NCBI GenBank assembly: GCA_017640685.1
Contig: JAEPQF010000005.1
Coordinates: 1 to 53,157, forward strand
Source of the DNA: Hyphomicrobiales bacterium
Lineage (GTDB): Bacteria; Pseudomonadota; Alphaproteobacteria; Rhizobiales; HXMU1428-3
Length of the DNA: 53,157 nt
Direction: 5' to 3'
The notes beneath the pieces were generated by a model. The model saw only the letters and a program-made list of their open reading frames with translations. It did no database searches and was not told the DNA's origin. Below are positions 3,348-21,459 of the stretch, one piece after another (position 1 is the first letter of the stretch; each line of letters starts with the position of its first letter). The position numbers and the translations under genes are program-made.

Positions 3348-4613
3348 ATGGCTCTTATCGTAATGAAATTTGGTGGCACATCAGTTGCCGATATGGACCG
3401 TATTCGTAATGTTGCACAGCATGTGAAACGTGAGGTTACTGCTGGAAATAAGGTGGCTGTTGTTGTCTCTGCCATGGCAGGGCGCACCAACGAACTCGTT
3501 AGCTGGGTGAATGATGCAGCAAAAACACCAGATCCGAGAGAATATGATGCGGTGGTTTCTTCAGGAGAACAGGTCACATCTGGTTTGTTAGCCCTTTGTT
3601 TGCAAAATGAAGGCGTTCAAGCTCGCTCATGGCAAGGTTGGCAAATTCCTTTAGAAACTGATGAGGCACATAGTAAAGCTCGGATTACTGACATAAAAGG
3701 TGGGGATCTTAAAACATCAGTTGAAAATGGTACTGTGGCTGTGATTGCAGGGTTTCAGGGTATTTCTCCTGATGGACGCGTGGCTACTTTGGGGCGTGGT
3801 GGATCTGACACCAGTGCAGTGGCCATTGCTGCAGCACTTGACGCTGACCTTTGTGATATATACACGGATGTAGACGGGGTTTATACAACCGATCCGCGTA
3901 TAGTTTCAAAAGCCCAACGACTTGAAAAGGTTTCCTATGAGGAAATGCTTGAAATGGCAAGTTTAGGGGCAAAAGTTTTACAGACCCGCTCTGTTGAGTT
4001 GGCTATGGTGAAAAATGTCCGCCTTGCTGTTCGCTCTAGTTTTGATGACCCGGCCTCTGTTCCGGCAGTTAATTTAGATGGGAATAGCACGATTGGAACG
4101 CTTGTATGCAATGAGGATGAGATTTTGGAACAGCAAGTTGTAAGTGGCATAGCCTATGCCAAAGATGAAGCAAAAGTAACTTTGATAAATGTGGCTGATG
4201 AACCTGGCGTAGCAGCTAGAGTGTTTGGCCCTCTTGCTGAAGCGAATATCAATGTTGATATGATTGTACAAAATGTCTCTGCTGATGGTGCTACGACAGA
4301 TATGACTTTTACAGTGCCTGAAGATGATTTAGAGCGGGCAATTTCTGTTTTAGAGGCTAGCAAAGATGAATTACGCTATGCTGAGCTTAAAGGCGCGACT
4401 GATATTGTGAAAGTATCTGTGATTGGTGTTGGTATGCGTAGCCATGCTGGTGTCGCAGCTAACATGTTTAAAGAACTCGCTGAAAAGGGCATTAACATAC
4501 AAGCGATCACGACTTCTGAAATTAAGATCAGTATTTTAATTGATGCTGCCTATCAAGAACTAGCGGTCCGAACTTTGCATAGTTTATTTGGCTTAGATCA
4601 AGAAACTGCATAA
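3348..4613 (+). CDS. lysC: Aspartate kinase
   Basis: Catalyses phosphorylation of aspartate, the first step to lysine, threonine, methionine and diaminopimelate. The N-terminal kinase domain opens with IVMKFGGTSVAD and includes VVSSGEQVTSGLLAL, GRGGSDTSAVAIAAAL and CDIYTDVDGVYTTDP. Two C-terminal ACT domains (about 265-340 and 345-415) carry feedback control; TTDMTFTVPEDDL and ITTSEIKISILID are typical. I place the start at ATG 3348, giving the usual MALIVMKFGG N-terminus; an upstream in-frame TTG at 3339 adds only three residues. Length of 421 residues is normal for a single-subunit kinase without a fused homoserine dehydrogenase. Continues on the same strand into ptsP. Confidence 0.96.
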   Translation: MALIVMKFGGTSVADMDRIRNVAQHVKREVTAGNKVAVVVSAMAGRTNELVSWVNDAAKTPDPREYDAVVSSGEQVTSGLLALCLQNEGVQARSWQGWQIPLETDEAHSKARITDIKGGDLKTSVENGTVAVIAGFQGISPDGRVATLGRGGSDTSAVAIAAALDADLCDIYTDVDGVYTTDPRIVSKAQRLEKVSYEEMLEMASLGAKVLQTRSVELAMVKNVRLAVRSSFDDPASVPAVNLDGNSTIGTLVCNEDEILEQQVVSGIAYAKDEAKVTLINVADEPGVAARVFGPLAEANINVDMIVQNVSADGATTDMTFTVPEDDLERAISVLEASKDELRYAELKGATDIVKVSVIGVGMRSHAGVAANMFKELAEKGINIQAITTSEIKISILIDAAYQELAVRTLHSLFGLDQETA

Positions 4614-4621
4614 ATTTTGTG

Positions 4622-4656
4622 ATATTGCTCTAAACATTATTGGTTGAGAGCGATAT
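4622..4656 (+). other. Inverted repeat between lysC and ptsP
   Basis: A 10-bp stem (ATATTGCTCT with AGAGCGATAT, one wobble) around a 15-base loop sits 9 bases after the lysC stop and 28 bases before the ptsP start. There is no T run, so it is not a standard terminator. It could protect the lysC mRNA 3' end or act as a processing site. Confidence 0.4.
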
Positions 4657-4683
4657 TGGGGATAATCATTTGGGGCAAATATA

Positions 4684-6957
4684 ATGGCACCAGCTAATGC
4701 TGCACCGCGTGTTTTAATGCGCCGGTTGCGTGAAATAATGGCACGGCCAGGCGAACCGCAAGCGCGGCTCGATGCTATTGTTACGCAAATTGCCCGCATT
4801 ATGGTTGCTGAAGTTTGCTCCCTTTATTTACGCCGCCCCGATGGATCTTTAGAGCTATTTGCTACAGAAGGCCTGAATAAAGAAGCCGTTCACAATACTC
4901 ATTTAGCAAAAGGTGAAGGGCTTGTTGGCCTTATTGCCGATCGCGCTGAGATCGTTAATATTCACGAAGCACAAGACCACCCAGCCTTTTCTTACAGACC
5001 TGAAACTGGGGAAGAGGTTTATCATTCTTTTCTTGGTACACCTATTTTGAGAGGTGGCCGCACTCTTGGTGTTATCACGGTGCAGAACCAGGCTCGCAAA
5101 GTTTATTCAGAAGAAGAAATTGAAGCTCTTGAGACCACCTCAATGTTGGTGGCTGAGCTTATTACATCTGGTGAGCTTGATGATGATGTTGCGGCCATGG
5201 CAGACCGAACATCCAGCCGGCATTTTTCAGGTGAGACAATTTCAGATGGGATTGCGCTTGGTCATGTGGTTTTGCATGAACCGCGTGTTACCATTCATGA
5301 ATTTTTCTCTGATGATCTTCACAATGAAAACCTTCGTCTTGATCAAGGCTTGGAGACCCTGCGTGCTTCCATTGATAAGATGCTTTCAAAAGCAGAATTA
5401 CAGCGGGCAGGTGATCATAAAGAAGTGCTCGAGGCTTACCGGTTATTTGCTCATGATCAGGGCTGGGTTAACCGGCTTAAACAAGCAGTTGCTTCTGGGT
5501 TGACCGCCGAAGCTGCTGTTGAGCGCGTGCAAAATGACATGCGGGCACGTATGCTTCCACAAAAGGATCGCTTTTGGGCGGAGCGCATGAAAGATCTTGA
5601 GGATCTTGGCAATCGGCTTTTGCGCATTCTTGTTGGTGATACTGAGACAGCTGCGACCTCTAATTTGCCTGAAGATACCATATTGGTAGCGCGCACGATG
5701 GGGGCAGCTGAACTATTAGATTATGATCCAAAAATATTGCGCGGTCTTGTTCTGGAAGAATCTGGGGCAAGCAGTCATGTTGCGATCGTTGCGCGCGCTC
5801 TTGGCATTTCAGCAGTTGGTGAAGCGGCTAATATTGTGAACCGGGTTGATACGGGCGATGACATCGTTGTTGATGCCATCACCGGTGATGTTTTTGTTAG
5901 ACCCACACAAGATGTTATTGAAGCTTATTCTGATAAAGTGCGCTTTCATGCGGCCAAGCAGAAGCAATATTCAGAGCTTAGAAATAAAGATGCGATCACA
6001 TTAGATGGCCAGGAAATTTCTTTAAAAATAAATGCTGGTCTGTTGGTTGACCTGCCGCATTTGGCGCAATCAGGGGCAGATGGAATTGGGCTTTATCGTA
6101 CTGAATTACAATTTATGATCGCGGCTAAATTTCCGCGCATGTCAGAGCAAAAGGAAACTTACAAAGCTGTGCTTGATGCAGCTGGGCATAGGCCTGTTGT
6201 CTTTCGCACGCTTGATGTTGGGGGCGATAAAATTCTTCCCTATATGCGAATGGCAGGTGAGCAAAACCCAGCGCTTGGCTGGCGTGCTATTCGCATGACA
6301 CTTGATCGGCCAGGGCTCTTTCGGACGCAAGTTCGGGCGCTTTTACAGGCGTCTAAAGGGAAAGTTTTGCGCTTGATGCTCCCGATGGTGACTGACCTTT
6401 CTGAGCTCACAAAAGCGAAAAAACTCATTCGAAAAGAAGAAAACTTCCTAAAACAGCACGGACATGAGGGGCCTAAACAACTTGAAATTGGCCTTATGAT
6501 TGAGGTTCCAGCGATTGTTTATCAGCTTGATGAAGTGTTGCCTCTCGTTGATTTTGTCTCAATTGGCAGTAATGATTTGATGCAATTTTTATTTGCCGCT
6601 GATCGCACAAACCAAAATGTGGCTGCACGGTATGATATGCTGCATTGTGTGTTTCTTCGCGTATTACAAAAAATTATTACAAAAGCGAACGCACATAATG
6701 TACCGGTAACGCTTTGTGGCGAAATGGCTGGTAAACCATTAGAATCTATGGCACTTTTAGGGCTAGGCTTACGATCTATTTCTATGTCACCGGCTTCTAT
6801 TGGCCCCGTGAAATCTATGATCCTCTCACTCGACCTACAAAAGCTTGAGACATTCATGATTGAAACTCTAGCAACTAAAAGCGGTTCTTTACGATCTTCA
6901 TTAGAGACTTATGCTCTAGATAAGAATATCAATGTAGAAGCCTTCAAACTTTCCTAA
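4684..6957 (+). CDS. ptsP: Phosphoenolpyruvate-protein phosphotransferase PtsP (EI-Ntr)
   Basis: First kinase of the nitrogen PTS, taking phosphate from PEP and passing it through NPr to PtsN (encoded at the left edge). The N-terminal GAF domain (about 20-165; LELFATEGLNKE, FLGTPILRGGRTLGVI) is the sensory part and is known in this family to respond to glutamine. The enzyme-I core follows. The phosphohistidine is in ESGASSHVAIVARALG (about residue 367), and PEP-binding motifs GIGLYRTELQFM, FRTLDVGGDKILPYMRM, SIGSNDLMQFLFAADR and TLCGEMAGKP are all intact. Length of 757 residues is normal. The gene lies 70 bp after lysC, a pairing that is common in Hyphomicrobiales. Confidence 0.96.
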   Translation: MAPANAAPRVLMRRLREIMARPGEPQARLDAIVTQIARIMVAEVCSLYLRRPDGSLELFATEGLNKEAVHNTHLAKGEGLVGLIADRAEIVNIHEAQDHPAFSYRPETGEEVYHSFLGTPILRGGRTLGVITVQNQARKVYSEEEIEALETTSMLVAELITSGELDDDVAAMADRTSSRHFSGETISDGIALGHVVLHEPRVTIHEFFSDDLHNENLRLDQGLETLRASIDKMLSKAELQRAGDHKEVLEAYRLFAHDQGWVNRLKQAVASGLTAEAAVERVQNDMRARMLPQKDRFWAERMKDLEDLGNRLLRILVGDTETAATSNLPEDTILVARTMGAAELLDYDPKILRGLVLEESGASSHVAIVARALGISAVGEAANIVNRVDTGDDIVVDAITGDVFVRPTQDVIEAYSDKVRFHAAKQKQYSELRNKDAITLDGQEISLKINAGLLVDLPHLAQSGADGIGLYRTELQFMIAAKFPRMSEQKETYKAVLDAAGHRPVVFRTLDVGGDKILPYMRMAGEQNPALGWRAIRMTLDRPGLFRTQVRALLQASKGKVLRLMLPMVTDLSELTKAKKLIRKEENFLKQHGHEGPKQLEIGLMIEVPAIVYQLDEVLPLVDFVSIGSNDLMQFLFAADRTNQNVAARYDMLHCVFLRVLQKIITKANAHNVPVTLCGEMAGKPLESMALLGLGLRSISMSPASIGPVKSMILSLDLQKLETFMIETLATKSGSLRSSLETYALDKNINVEAFKLS

Positions 6958-16847: not shown

Positions 16848-17588
16848 TCACTTCAATGAAATTCTATAAACCTCCCCGAACTGTAAGAAGCTATCCAGGC
16901 TTTTTGCTCCGGTGATAACTAAGTTTGTTTCGCTTTTATCGAGGGCCATGTTGGTGACGAAGCGTAGGCCGGTGTGGAGGCTTTTTTTGTATTTTCCATT
17001 GGCACCGTAAACATAGATGCGGCCTCTGGCGTATTCGGCGATGTAGATGGTGCCGTTTTTGGAAATCTCTATGCCGTCTGGACCTGTATATTCAGGATCT
17101 CTGCTTCGAAAGGGAGAGGTGTTTTTAAAATTGGTGAAGAGTTTTTTCTTGCCTATTTTTCCTTTCCCTAACAGCGGATATTTGATCACGCGCTTAGCTA
17201 GGTGCTCTGAGACATAAAGCTCATTTTTATAAATCGCGATGCCATTTGGGTAAATGAGGTTTTCGGCTATTTTTGTTAACACGCCTTCTTTGCTTAGGTA
17301 AAAAATGAGCCCCATTGGCTGGAGCTTCTTGTCAAAATGACCAGGGGCAGTCAGGTATACACCGCCCTGCCCATCACTTATGCAGTCGTTGGGGTGGAAG
17401 ATCGCAATGCCTTCTTTGCTTTTTTTGACGGAACGGAGCGTTTTGCCTTTCCTGTCAACAATGATCAGTTCATCACTTAAGTGGCAAAGGATGACGAGTT
17501 TATTTGTTTGATAGCGCGCGAGAGACGTTGGGCCACATCCCTTTTTATAGAAGTAGGGGCTAGCCCCTTTAAAGGGCTTTATTATGCT
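16848..17588 (-). pseudogene. SMP-30/gluconolactonase-like beta-propeller, C-terminal part of a frame-shifted gene
   Basis: This is the -1 frame continuation of the gene starting at 18460. The frame is open from the A run at 17588-17596 to the TAA and reads as 246 residues of SMP-30-like propeller. Family metal-ligand motifs are present: FHPNDCISDGQGGVYLT, IYPNGIAIYKNELYVSEH and GPDGIEISKNGTIYIAEY. The fourth, PEGPVF, lies before the break in the other frame. Every piece of the propeller is therefore intact, and only one base separates it from a complete 537-residue protein. A 155-codon internal ORF with ATG at 17315 exists but would omit a third of the propeller. SMP-30 proteins are metal-dependent lactonases or esterases; the substrate here is unknown. 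Confidence 0.75.
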
Positions 17589-18460
17589 TTTTTTTTAAGC
17601 GTCATTTTTTCAAACGTTCGTGCTGGCACTTTCATCACTCTGTTCCGGGTCATTTCTGTGTAGTACAAATCACCATCTATGAACACAGGGCCTTCTGGGT
17701 AAGCAGCTTGTTTTTCTATTATTATTCTTTGCCCCTTTTTAGCTTCTGCTGGCTGAATGCCTGCAAAAGTTACGCTCAAAAGACATGTAACGCTTAGGAC
17801 AATAGCTAGCAGTGCATTAAGCTGAGTTGCTGGTTTTTGGGTCTCTGATTTCGGGCGGGCAAAGATGACGATGACCATTGCCAGGACAAGAAATACAGAA
17901 AGAGACATTGTGAGTGACCGTGTGCCAAAATTTGGGATGAGATAAAAAGAGGTTAGCAGCGTGCCAAAAATATTGCCCGCTGTAGAGACGGCAAACACCG
18001 TGCCTGAGGTGCGGCCTGCGTGTTCAACATCCATTAAGGTGCGTCGGATGGCGACAGGTGAGAAGGTTGAGAGGCAAGCAACGGGAGGCCCTGTGACGAT
18101 GAGGGCCCCAACGAGGGCGCCAAGTTTTACATCTTCGATGGCTGTGATAACCATTTCCATCATCGGATCAATGAATTGGGGTAAGGCGATCATATATAAA
18201 GCCGAGACGAATATCATCGCTTCTAAAAGCCAGCCGGATTTATGCCTATCTGCATTATACCCGCCTAGGAAATATCCCCCCATCATAGCCAGGAGGACAA
18301 CAGAAATGAGAGCTGCCCAAGTGAAAATCGTTCCGCCGAAATAGGGATTTAGATAGCGTGATGCCAGCATTTCTAAGGACATGATCACAGCGCCAACAGT
18401 AAAAGCTGCGATGAGCATCATGATAAAAGAAAGTGAATTATTGTTATTTTTATTCGGCAT
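17582..18460 (-). CDS. Membrane protein of fused-MFS/spermidine-synthase type, joined to start of an SMP-30 propeller
   Basis: Residues 1-205 form six membrane helices of the kind that precedes the synthase domain in fused MFS/spermidine synthase proteins (LEMLASRYLNPYFGGTIFTW, then LLAMMGGYFLGGYNADRH). A seventh helix (LNALLAIVLSVTCLLSVTFAG, about 217-237) leads into AKKGQRIIIEKQAAYPEGPV, the first strand and first metal ligand (Glu) of an SMP-30 propeller. The frame then ends at TAA just after nine A residues (17588-17596). A -1 shift there restores the rest of the propeller. Seven helices would place the propeller outside the cytoplasm. The start codon follows the TAA of the upstream synthase-like gene directly (TAAATG), so the two are probably translationally coupled. 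Confidence 0.8.
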   Translation of the reverse strand: MPNKNNNNSLSFIMMLIAAFTVGAVIMSLEMLASRYLNPYFGGTIFTWAALISVVLLAMMGGYFLGGYNADRHKSGWLLEAMIFVSALYMIALPQFIDPMMEMVITAIEDVKLGALVGALIVTGPPVACLSTFSPVAIRRTLMDVEHAGRTSGTVFAVSTAGNIFGTLLTSFYLIPNFGTRSLTMSLSVFLVLAMVIVIFARPKSETQKPATQLNALLAIVLSVTCLLSVTFAGIQPAEAKKGQRIIIEKQAAYPEGPVFIDGDLYYTEMTRNRVMKVPARTFEKMTLKKKA

Positions 18461-19387
18461 TTAACGGTCCCGTTTTTCATTGTGGGTTTTGATGGTTTTC
18501 AGCATATTTACTGGTGCGAAATCATCGGTCAGCGGTTTGGTTTTGGTATTGAAATCTAAGAGCATCGCGCGTTTTTGGATGAGGTCAGGCAAGGCATAAC
18601 GGAAATTATGGGTCTCTTGCAATTCGGTTGCTTTATCTATGACGCTTTCAATGGGCTTTTTCTCTCCATCATAAGCAATGGCCACAATATTGCCGCCGCC
18701 TCTATAAACATCAACATGATCAAAAACTGAAGAAATGGTGGCGATGGCGCTGTCATAAAGCATAGTTGAGGGCTCGATATTTTGCACCATGACACCGCCT
18801 TTGCTGAGGCGTTTTTTGGCTAGCTTAAAAAACTCTTTGGTCATCAGATGAAAGGGAACAAACTGCCCTCTGTATGCATCGACAAAAATGATGTCGTGCT
18901 TTTGTTTTTTACGCAGAATGTGCATGCGGCCATCAAGTTCAGAGATGATAAAATTTTCACTTTGCTTGCCGTTTTCTTTAAAGCCGTAATATTTTCTCGA
19001 TAAGCGAATGATCTCTGGATCGAGTTCGACAGCTACGACTTTTGCTTTTGGCAAGGCTTTATGAAGGTACCAACTGGTAGAGCCACCGCCCATGCCAATC
19101 ATAAGGAAAGACTTTAAGTTTTTTGGGTATGCCAAGCCGATGGTGAAGCTTTTGGTATATTCAACAGGAAGTTCTGTTAAATCGTTAGGATTTCGACGAC
19201 TTTCAACGTAGCGCCGGCTCTTATGGCCGAAAGCAAGGGTGATATAAGGTGTTTGTTTGTAGATATAGATGGTGTTGTAGGGACTTTCGACTTTTTCTAA
19301 GAGCTTTTCGGCTTTCAAAGGGGATGAGAGCGCCAAGAAACATGGCATACACATAAGGAATGCAGTAAATTTATTGTTCATATTCAA
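18461..19387 (-). CDS. Secreted spermidine-synthase-like protein
   Basis: A 308-residue Rossmann protein of the spermidine synthase fold. The first 26 residues look like a Sec signal peptide (FTAFLMCMPCFLALSSPLKA, then EK). The nucleotide-binding region is present (SFLMIGMGGGSTSWYL, VVAVELDPEIIRLSRKYYG), and IIFVDAYRGQFVPFHLMT matches the catalytic segment. Against true SpeE, the GGGDG motif reads GGGST, and the catalytic DxxD pair keeps only the first Asp (DAYRG). Aminopropyl transfer is therefore doubtful, and an exported protein would not meet the usual cytoplasmic substrate pool. The gene is directly coupled to the membrane/propeller gene, suggesting one envelope complex. Confidence 0.8.
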   Translation of the reverse strand: MNMNNKFTAFLMCMPCFLALSSPLKAEKLLEKVESPYNTIYIYKQTPYITLAFGHKSRRYVESRRNPNDLTELPVEYTKSFTIGLAYPKNLKSFLMIGMGGGSTSWYLHKALPKAKVVAVELDPEIIRLSRKYYGFKENGKQSENFIISELDGRMHILRKKQKHDIIFVDAYRGQFVPFHLMTKEFFKLAKKRLSKGGVMVQNIEPSTMLYDSAIATISSVFDHVDVYRGGGNIVAIAYDGEKKPIESVIDKATELQETHNFRYALPDLIQKRAMLLDFNTKTKPLTDDFAPVNMLKTIKTHNEKRDR

Positions 19388-19584
19388 ATACTAACCATCT
19401 AATTCTAACAAATTTTACTAAGAGACCTGCCATCAGGTTTTAAACTAATTTTCTTTCACCCAATAGAGCTATTTCTTGGCAACATTGCAATAATTTAATC
19501 TTCCTTGATATGGAAATTTCATCACAGTTATTTTATACTTTGGCTCAAATTATGAAATTTTCAGCACTTTGGAGGGTTTTTGAA

Positions 19585-21459
19585 ATGCGCGGTCTGGCTT
19601 CTTTTATTTTGACTGTAATTTTGCTACTTCCTTTCTCTACGACAGGGTATGCAAAGAGAGTGGCACTTGTTGTTGGTAATGACAGTTATGTCAATGTGCC
19701 AAAGCTAGCCAAGGCGCAGAATGACGCTGATAGTATTTCAAAAAAATTGAAAGACCTAGGCTTTCAGGTTCATTTACATAAAGACCTAAACCGGCGTGGA
19801 TTTAATCAACAATTACAGAAATTTCTCTCTTCCCTGCAAGCAGGCGATGAAGCGCTTTTCTTCTTTGCGGGGCACGGTGTTGAAATTCGCGGGCAAAACT
19901 ATCTCCTTCCAACGGACATTCCCAATGCTGAGCCTGGCCAGGAAGCATTTGTGAAAAGTGAAGCGATTGGCGTGAATTATGTTCTTAATGAAATTGGTCG
20001 CCGGAAAGTTCGCATGACAATGCTGATTTTGGATGCTTGCCGGAATAACCCTTTTCAAAAATCAGGGACGCGTAGCTTAGGGCGCACACGCGGCCTTGGC
20101 ACCATGGAAGCGCCACCAGAGGGCACTTTTATTCTTTATTCTGCCGGGTTTGGGCAATCGGCGCTTGATCGTTTGAGCGATAGTGACCCGCATCCAAATT
20201 CTGTGTTCACACGGACTTTGGTGCCATTGCTCTCAAAACCAGGATTAAAACTTTCTGACACAGCGCGGCAAGTGCGCCGCAAAGTTATGAAGCTTGCGTC
20301 AACCGTTAGCCATGAACAGCGCCCAGCTTATTATGATGAAGTATTAGGTGATTTTTATTTCACTCCGCCGGCTGCTGGTCTTGTTGAACATTCAACACCG
20401 AAAAATGTGATCACAAAACAGCCTACTGTTAGTATTCAAGGTGGTGGAACATGTGGAGTTTGGCCGCAAATTGCAACATCTGCCACTTATGCCCAAGTCG
20501 AGGCGTTTTTAGCTGAATGTAAATCAGGTATTTACTCAACTTTAGCGAAAGCACGTTTGGAAGAGTTGAAGGTGAAACAACCGAATAAGGCACTTGCTCT
20601 CCTGCCACCTGTTATTAAGAAACCGAAAAAAGTTTCCAAAAATGCACAAGCTATTTTCACCAGAGCCTGGAATATTTTCAATGGGCGCAATGGAGAGACC
20701 AAAGATCATTACAAAGCTGTGCGGCTTTATAGACAAGCTGTTTCTATGGGACACAAGAGTGCGATGGTGAACCTTGGTTATTCTCTTGAAAATGGTTTTG
20801 GTATTGAGAAAGATGTAGTGAAAGCTGCCCAGATGTACAAGAGAGCAGCTGAGCTTGGGGAAGCTCAAGGTATGACCAATTTAGGTTATATGTATGAGAA
20901 CGGTAAAGGCATCACTCGTGATTTAAAAGAAGCAGCCAAATGGTACAAAAAATCGGCTTTGGCTGGTAACTATAATGGCATGACGAACTTTGGCTATATG
21001 AATGAAACTGGTCGCGGTATTCCGGTGAATTTTAAAGCAGCCGTCAAGTGGTATCGCAAAGGTGCTGATGGCGGTGTTGCTCGGGCTAAAAACAATCTTG
21101 CTTATATGTACCTTTATGGTCGCGGTGTGAAGAAAAGCGAGCGCACCGCATGGTCTTTATATAAAGCGGCAGCTGACCAGGGCTTTGCGAACTCTAATTA
21201 TATGCTTGGTTATATGAGACTGCTCGGCAAAGGTGTGAAACGCAATGATAAAAAAGCTGCCAAGTGGGTGTTTAAAGCGCTTCAAGGGAAGCATCAGTTT
21301 GCTGTGAAAGAAATGACAACGAATTCAGCTGGCTGGTCATTGGTCTTTAGAAGAGAGTTGCAACGTTTGATGTCAAATGCTGGCTATTATAGCGGGGCGA
21401 TAGATGGAAGGTTTGGGCCAGAAACTTTCAATGCTGTTCGCAGTGTGGCTGGGCAATAA
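19585..21459 (+). CDS. Secreted caspase-like (C14) protein with Sel1-like repeats
   Basis: Numbered from ATG 19585, which I prefer because GGAGGG lies 8-9 bases upstream and the protein then opens with a clear signal peptide (MRGLASFILTVILLLPFSTT, then GYA). The upstream in-frame ATG at 19510 has neither. The caspase-like domain (about 22-260) has the dyad His97 in FFFAGHGVEIRG and Cys152 in MLILDACRNNP. A spacer follows (WPQIATSATYAQVEAFL), then five or so Sel1/TPR-like repeats (for example AMVNLGYSLENGFGIEKD, GMTNLGYMYENGKGI). The C-terminus (LMSNAGYYSGAIDGRFGPET) resembles half of a peptidoglycan-binding type 1 domain. Such proteins are predicted periplasmic proteases with protein-binding repeats; the target is unknown. 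It diverges from the synthase-like gene. Confidence 0.88.
   Translation: MRGLASFILTVILLLPFSTTGYAKRVALVVGNDSYVNVPKLAKAQNDADSISKKLKDLGFQVHLHKDLNRRGFNQQLQKFLSSLQAGDEALFFFAGHGVEIRGQNYLLPTDIPNAEPGQEAFVKSEAIGVNYVLNEIGRRKVRMTMLILDACRNNPFQKSGTRSLGRTRGLGTMEAPPEGTFILYSAGFGQSALDRLSDSDPHPNSVFTRTLVPLLSKPGLKLSDTARQVRRKVMKLASTVSHEQRPAYYDEVLGDFYFTPPAAGLVEHSTPKNVITKQPTVSIQGGGTCGVWPQIATSATYAQVEAFLAECKSGIYSTLAKARLEELKVKQPNKALALLPPVIKKPKKVSKNAQAIFTRAWNIFNGRNGETKDHYKAVRLYRQAVSMGHKSAMVNLGYSLENGFGIEKDVVKAAQMYKRAAELGEAQGMTNLGYMYENGKGITRDLKEAAKWYKKSALAGNYNGMTNFGYMNETGRGIPVNFKAAVKWYRKGADGGVARAKNNLAYMYLYGRGVKKSERTAWSLYKAAADQGFANSNYMLGYMRLLGKGVKRNDKKAAKWVFKALQGKHQFAVKEMTTNSAGWSLVFRRELQRLMSNAGYYSGAIDGRFGPETFNAVRSVAGQ

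Follow-up and report, generated by a model that had tools for sequence, protein, structure and literature searches.

At the level of expression, the closest described systems for the gene discussed here are dnaX of Thermus thermophilus and mxiE of Shigella. The former yields two products by way of a homopolymer of nine A's, as we propose here, and in the latter, in which the run consists of U's, the long product likewise needs a slipped transcript (Baranov 2005, in the part of that work on which we draw). According to the same part of Baranov 2005, it is very likely that slippage makes use of a run of nine A's when homologues keep its length, and A or T runs are selected against at nine bases in many genomes.

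At the level of the protein, the closest described systems are the fused MFS/spermidine synthases (NF037959), the fungal enzyme NHMT, METTL13, and the propellers of the SMP-30, DFPase, and lactonase kind. NHMT is a seven-helix protein with a synthase-like domain that methylates the N-terminal histidine of secreted proteins (PMC10349129, in the sections cited here), and the transferase domain of METTL13 is likewise synthase-like. For the function of the fused MFS/spermidine synthase family, the fungal NHMT work was the one lead from the literature that we followed, and the terms spermidine, SMP-30, gluconolactonase, and MFS are absent from the main text of Antonov 2013. Here, we describe a gene in the window (the whole stretch of DNA that was analysed, 53,157 nucleotides from a Hyphomicrobiales bacterium) that probably encodes a membrane-propeller protein across a conserved, selected frame break, and that is a new candidate for a known mechanism in a new setting.

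A module of synthase, membrane core, and propeller

All parts of the module lie on the minus strand. The synthase-like or methyltransferase-like protein is encoded at 18461 to 19381 (stop included), counts 306 residues from the ATG at 19381 or 308 from a TTG at 19387, and matches PF01564 with 43.4 bits. The first-pass annotation of this DNA had credited it with a signal peptide, an altered GGGST loop, and only one Asp of the DxxD pair, and these features hold: judged by eye, together with the similarly hydrophobic starts of its homologues, a predicted Sec signal peptide of 24 residues (19310 to 19381) ends in PLKA before a Glu; GGGST is present; and D-A-Y-R replaces DxxD. As had also been noticed, its TAA directly abuts the start codon (ATG) of the membrane gene. 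The assignment of that second gene to the fused-MFS/synthase kind is borne out by NF037959, whose membrane half matches it with 86.7 bits and whose C-terminal half matches the synthase-like protein with 85.1 bits, both above the cut-off of 40.

The membrane gene had been read in the first pass as encoding one protein in which seven helices are followed by an SMP-30 propeller. A propeller does follow, the downstream part alone matching PF08450 with 74.8 bits (cut-off, 26.3), but 16848 to 18460 is not one ORF. The zero-frame ORF (17582 to 18460) encodes the helical core, a signal-peptide-like helix, and the first propeller strands and ends in LKKKA-stop, and the remaining SMP-30/SGL propeller is encoded in the -1 frame at 16848 to 17594, stop included. 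The helix count also needs qualification: a hydropathy scan gives six helices in the window's protein, the last of which (residues 217 to 235) is signal-peptide-like, and six or seven in relatives. The AlphaFold model of the fusion from a sister species (mean pLDDT, 81.9; pTM, 0.55) shows six helices predicted with confidence and a weak seventh, after which come a disordered joint and the propeller.

The three parts had been proposed to belong together. Matches to all of them occur in all eight genomes of the genus that were examined, so the layout goes beyond chance; in one of these genomes (G001), synthase and membrane gene are each located close to the end of a different contig, and their adjacency is inferred there. 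The obvious objection, that the pair might not be conserved in related genomes, is answered within the genus, where it is. Diverging from the module on the plus strand (19510 to 21459) is a gene for a caspase (C14), Sel1, and peptidoglycan-binding protein, relatives of which stand beside the module in all eight genomes of the genus and, in G044, not far from it; we claim no membership in the module for it.

A frame break at nine A's

In the window, the membrane frame that starts at 18460 is open for 292 codons and is closed by a stop at 17582 to 17584, the second codon past a run of nine A's (17588 to 17596; T9 on the plus strand) that is our proposed slippery site. Beyond the run, the propeller resumes in the -1 frame (16851 to 17594), which is itself closed by a TAA at 17595 to 17597 that overlaps the start of the run. 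A single continuous membrane-propeller ORF in the window is ruled out by the stop after the run and the change of frame. The same break, at exactly nine A's, is common to all four genomes of the window's clade (G000, G002, G003, and G004), in each of which the second or third codon past the run closes the zero frame and a propeller-frame TAA overlaps the run's start. By alignment to the sister-species model, the break would be located in a turn between two early propeller strands.

The four other genomes of the genus (G001, G005, G006, and G007) have one in-frame fusion ORF of 518 to 536 residues, and in a quick tree the broken genes form one clade nested inside the in-frame fusions (SH-aLRT, 98). 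The tree has 53 rows and long branches, L102 having been left out on account of a contig end and the window and G002 having been added, and we rely on it only for the frame-broken clade and the genus. The break is thus known from four species and a single origin, with G003 and G004 being metagenome bins and G000 and G002 drafts. The sequences themselves show that the gene is broken, that four species have the break in common, that the shifted frame is constrained (see below), and, in the quick tree, that the broken genes make up one clade. The alignment is ambiguous around the run, MAFFT not placing the nine A's of G002 and G004 opposite those of G000 and G003. Nine A's as such are not improbable here because AAA codons for Lys are well kept in these genes, with 37 of 55 aligned Lys columns keeping AAA in all four genomes.

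Is it possible that the genomic DNA holds ten A's and that the gene is an ordinary fusion like that of the sister species, misread through an error of sequencing or assembly? The site is a homopolymer, and it is seen in draft assemblies only. In addition, the assemblies of G000, G002, G003, and G004 contain 372, 413, 361, and 376 runs of eight A's; 50, 68, 56, and 64 runs of nine (238 in total); and 3, 3, 1, and 4 runs of ten, which makes exact runs of ten 16 to 56 times rarer than runs of nine and runs of nine 6 to 7 times rarer than runs of eight. The steeper drop at ten could stem from the assembly or from selection that disfavours long runs, and on counts alone a collapse of longer runs is possible. 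However, an error at this site is unlikely because four separate assemblies agree on the length of the run, because every one of them holds runs of ten A's, and because the other sites with nine A's that were examined look unbroken: among 30 of the 238 (the first in the list, not a random choice; 21 inside an ORF of at least 60 residues and 9 in none), there was no site at which ORFs meet in different frames. We give such an error a slim chance.

Phase variation is a further explanation for a break at a homopolymer. Replication slippage would alter the length of the run and thereby toggle the propeller on and off within a population, and A and T runs are mutable in replication too (Baranov 2005 and Antonov 2013, in the parts cited here). 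Under this explanation some in-frame lengths would be expected, yet the four assemblies have an identical off length, and we regard phase variation as quite improbable.

Selection on the shifted frame

The break has one origin, in-frame relatives exist, and in 11 of the 52 related loci discussed below the core has a synthase next to it but the profile detects no propeller; these observations would fit a tolerated or recent inactivation, with the propeller as the decaying tail of a pseudogene. Against inactivation stands purifying selection in the shifted frame. For the part after the break, dN/dS is 0.05 to 0.12 at a dS of 0.5 to 1.9 (six pairs from four species, with the part in G003 limited to 149 codons by a contig end), and the same pairs give 0.07 to 0.10 for the membrane part and 0.02 to 0.04 for the synthase. 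The 149 to 248 codons available in the four species contain no extra stop or change of frame.

This selection extends over the stretch that precedes any ATG, GTG, or TTG in the shifted frame, the first of which is found at codons 89 to 94 in the four genomes (in the window, at codon 94, 17313 to 17315). Over the 74 codons that lead from CGPT to this ATG, GTG, or TTG, variable sites number 7, 6, and 51 by codon position; with 51 of 64 variable sites at third positions, the coding constraint on the shifted frame is therefore strong (binomial p of 4e-14 against one third, a value that is indicative, the sites being related by descent). Across these codons, dN/dS is 0.02 to 0.06 in the four of six pairs in which dS is unsaturated, and the two other frames contain 3 to 7 stops. 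In the in-frame sister species, the same 74 codons give a dN/dS of 0.20 to 0.29, at larger distances and in the two of three pairs for which it was computable (G001 is left out because of its length). The ratios of the broken clade are lower than those of the sisters, and there is therefore no sign of relaxation in that clade. Together, the dN/dS and codon-position data largely refute inactivation, which we consider highly improbable. A restart of the propeller at a common start codon inside the gene was rejected as well, there being no ATG, GTG, or TTG before codons 89 to 94; the rarer starts ATA, ATC, ATT, and CTG occur earlier.

The break also divides a putative metal site. The propeller fold predicted for the sister species matches DFPase, xylonolactonase, Drp35, and SMP30 in structure comparison. 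Alignment A7 (seven in-frame fusions) is invariant at the Glu of YPEG, the Asn of PND, the Asn of Y.NG, and the Asp of GPDG, and the window has all four residues. By analogy they may be DFPase-type metal ligands, corresponding to E21, N120, N175, and D229 of DFPase (mutated in a structure entry), which are calcium ligands there. The codon of the Glu in YPEGP, likely the first of these ligands and invariant in alignments A4 and A7, is at 17693 to 17695, upstream of the break, and the residues of PND, YPNG, and GPDG are encoded after it. If the DFPase analogy holds, the site therefore works only as one chain.

Slippage of RNA polymerase as the proposed mechanism

In total, we consider it probable that the gene at 16848 to 18460 functions in spite of the frame break, which RNA polymerase would bridge by slipping on the nine A's, with two products as the outcome. 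In this model, RNA polymerase slips on the run, and part of the transcripts would carry an altered number of A's. Transcripts with one extra A would encode the full membrane-propeller protein, and the remaining transcripts would encode a protein of 292 residues (or similarly short) that ends past the first propeller strands and comprises the core, helix 7, and about 50 residues. One mRNA population would in this way deliver the membrane core in excess of the propeller. In the same model, the core, made of helices of the fused MFS/synthase type, would cooperate with two exported enzymes. The first would be the signal-peptide-bearing synthase-like protein, which is more likely a SAM-type group transferase than a spermidine synthase; the second would be the DFPase- or lactonase-type propeller, which would be linked to the core via what appears to be an old signal peptide of its own. 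What we infer is slippage at transcription, the existence of the two products, the view that their ratio is the point of the arrangement, export, and the enzymatic roles; retention of the break could reflect tolerance of a harmless break instead of its use.

Could the ribosome, and not the polymerase, be the machine that slips? In programmed ribosomal -1 frameshifting, the tandem Lys codons AAA AAA would slip back one base, with the same two products. Within the run lies A_AAA_AAA, which has been implicated in shifting by the ribosome, and a cassette of nine A's led to 40% shifting, a figure that alone does not separate transcription from translation (both from the part of Antonov 2013 cited here). 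The 70 bases downstream of the run fold somewhat better than shuffles in G000 and G003 (z of -1.3 and -1.8). A hairpin downstream of the nine A's and common to the four genomes was looked for and rejected, the structures differing among them at z values of -0.7 to -1.8, and a ribosomal signal is slightly disfavoured because the four genomes have no downstream structure in common. We consider slippage at transcription more likely than slippage at the ribosome, to which we give a minor though appreciable chance.

The predicted exported partners across related loci

How general is an arrangement of this kind? A scan with two peptide patterns from the genus, in which other branches are under-sampled, returned 52 loci, whose architecture was read by hand with profiles derived from members of the genus and from a few relatives. 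The core is fused to a synthase, the usual form, in 27 of them (L084 also has a separate synthase, and L085 is cut) and to a propeller in 7, which belong to the window's genus and, outside it, to L068 and L075/L104. The frame-broken version accounts for 2 (L054 and L055); the others comprise one locus (L091) in which the propeller is a gene of its own, 11 that pair the core with a separate synthase and in which the profile detected no propeller, 3 with the membrane gene alone, and 1 odd case (L083). Not one of the 52 has a core fused to both synthase and propeller. In 20 loci, all among the 25 that have no fused synthase, the synthase is encoded separately and immediately upstream of the membrane gene, and the membrane-propeller and frame-broken groups overlap with this separate-synthase group; the number is 21 with L057, a membrane-propeller fusion whose synthase is on another contig of its genome. 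The odd case, L083, is a membrane-synthase fusion with a frame change at 4430 to 4720; the break is without a homopolymer, is an error or a mutation, and was ruled out as a second case of slippage.

The split synthases that were inspected have signal-peptide-like starts, that of L093 being rather a signal anchor. In L091, the separate propeller gene overlaps the stop of the core and has a signal-peptide-like start of its own, and in G044, synthase and propeller adjoin, each with a signal-peptide-like beginning, and the core is located on a different contig. The first-pass annotation had called the layout unusual. The split with a propeller-bearing core is real, but separate exported synthases and propeller fusions are found in other lineages too. 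More surprising than the layout is the conserved break at nine A's, which the first pass had missed.

In fusions to either partner, the soluble domain is for the most part preceded by a helix that combines basic residues with a hydrophobic stretch and ends in a motif resembling AxA; in the window, this helix is encoded at 17741 to 17812 (residues 217 to 240, ending in PAEA), between core and propeller. By a crude pattern of AxA or VxA, 22 of the 23 scored membrane-synthase fusions match (4 of 27 could not be scored), and the miss, L060, ends in LHA. The pattern is present in 8 of 11 membrane-propeller proteins, against 40% of control stretches from the same proteins, a weak control; it is missed in the three remaining frameshift species, in two of which the segment was wrongly delimited. 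The simplest history suggested by these sequences is that either exported partner could become attached to the core by way of the signal peptide that it already had.

Aminopropyltransferases require both Asp residues of DxxD. In all 14 rows of alignment A5, DxxD has become DAYR and the acid of the GxG(D/E)G loop has become S or R. That acid, too, is required in an aminopropyltransferase and is likewise missing from NHMT (PMC10349129, in the sections cited here). The window's synthase reaches 53.8 bits against TIGR00417, below the curated equivalog score of 249.55. The aminopropyltransferase fold is kept, with spermidine synthases ranking first when the AlphaFold model (mean pLDDT, 72.5) is compared with known structures (3anx: Z of 21.6, rmsd of 3.8, and 262 residues aligned; METTL13, 5wcj: 15.9, 2.8, and 182). 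By contrast with the structures, a profile of the 14 split synthases has METTL13 as its best PDB match, by a small margin (1.2e-15 versus 1.7e-14 for the best spermidine synthase). E119, invariant in A5, aligns with a Glu of METTL13 and is a candidate counterpart of the SAM-binding E340 of NHMT.

By analogy, then, methyl or similar transfer outside the cytoplasm seems more likely for the synthase-like protein than polyamine synthesis. The idea of an exported enzyme set working on something other than polyamines stands insofar as the signal-like starts, the lost acids, and the METTL13 profile point that way; the structural ranking, with spermidine synthases first, does not. A homologue that is a cytoplasmic, active aminopropyltransferase would speak against the idea, and no homologue was shown to be one.

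Among the neighbouring genes inspected, no partner gene for the split form was shared beyond the genus and G044. In Bradyrhizobium sp. BTAi1, the split pair is followed by a gene for an M28-family peptidase with a signal-peptide-like start (L098, 4592 to 5569). On a Pseudoalteromonas plasmid (L136, 4387 to 6361), a split membrane/synthase pair, both members of which are annotated as fused MFS/spermidine synthase and whose synthase has the loop GGGSL as in METTL13, is followed by a TlpA-type disulfide reductase.

Significance and comparison with known systems

Genes broken at slippery runs are readily annotated as pseudogenes, and here the hidden frame bears unusually clear marks of selection, with the in-frame copies of close sister species serving as a natural control. 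The family also suggests that many bacteria may have exported SAM-type transferases that are called spermidine synthases, and the supply of cofactor outside the cytoplasm would then become a question. We can carry the speculation further, to a picture that we ourselves find improbable as a whole: a periplasmic modification unit whose half-MFS core would serve, possibly with S-adenosylmethionine, an exported METTL13- or NHMT-like transferase and a propeller enzyme joined by a retained signal peptide, and in which transcriptional slippage on nine A's would set the ratio of propeller to core in one clade. The stoichiometry of such an envelope enzyme would be governed by slippage of RNA polymerase.

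The gene shares with genes that use slippage on nine A's a conserved run length and a selected downstream frame, both found in all four genomes of the clade; the other four genomes of the genus are in frame. It differs from dnaX and mxiE in that it encodes a membrane core joined to a propeller that is predicted to be exported. Relative to the fused MFS/spermidine synthases of NF037959, the module is divided into two genes, and its membrane part carries a propeller in place of the synthase. In contrast to NHMT, the helices of which are found only in fungi according to the cited sections of PMC10349129, the system is bacterial and is split into two genes. Finally, the propeller shares PF08450 and, by the sister-species model, a fold with the SMP-30, DFPase, and lactonase propellers, but here it is attached to a membrane core and encoded in two frames.
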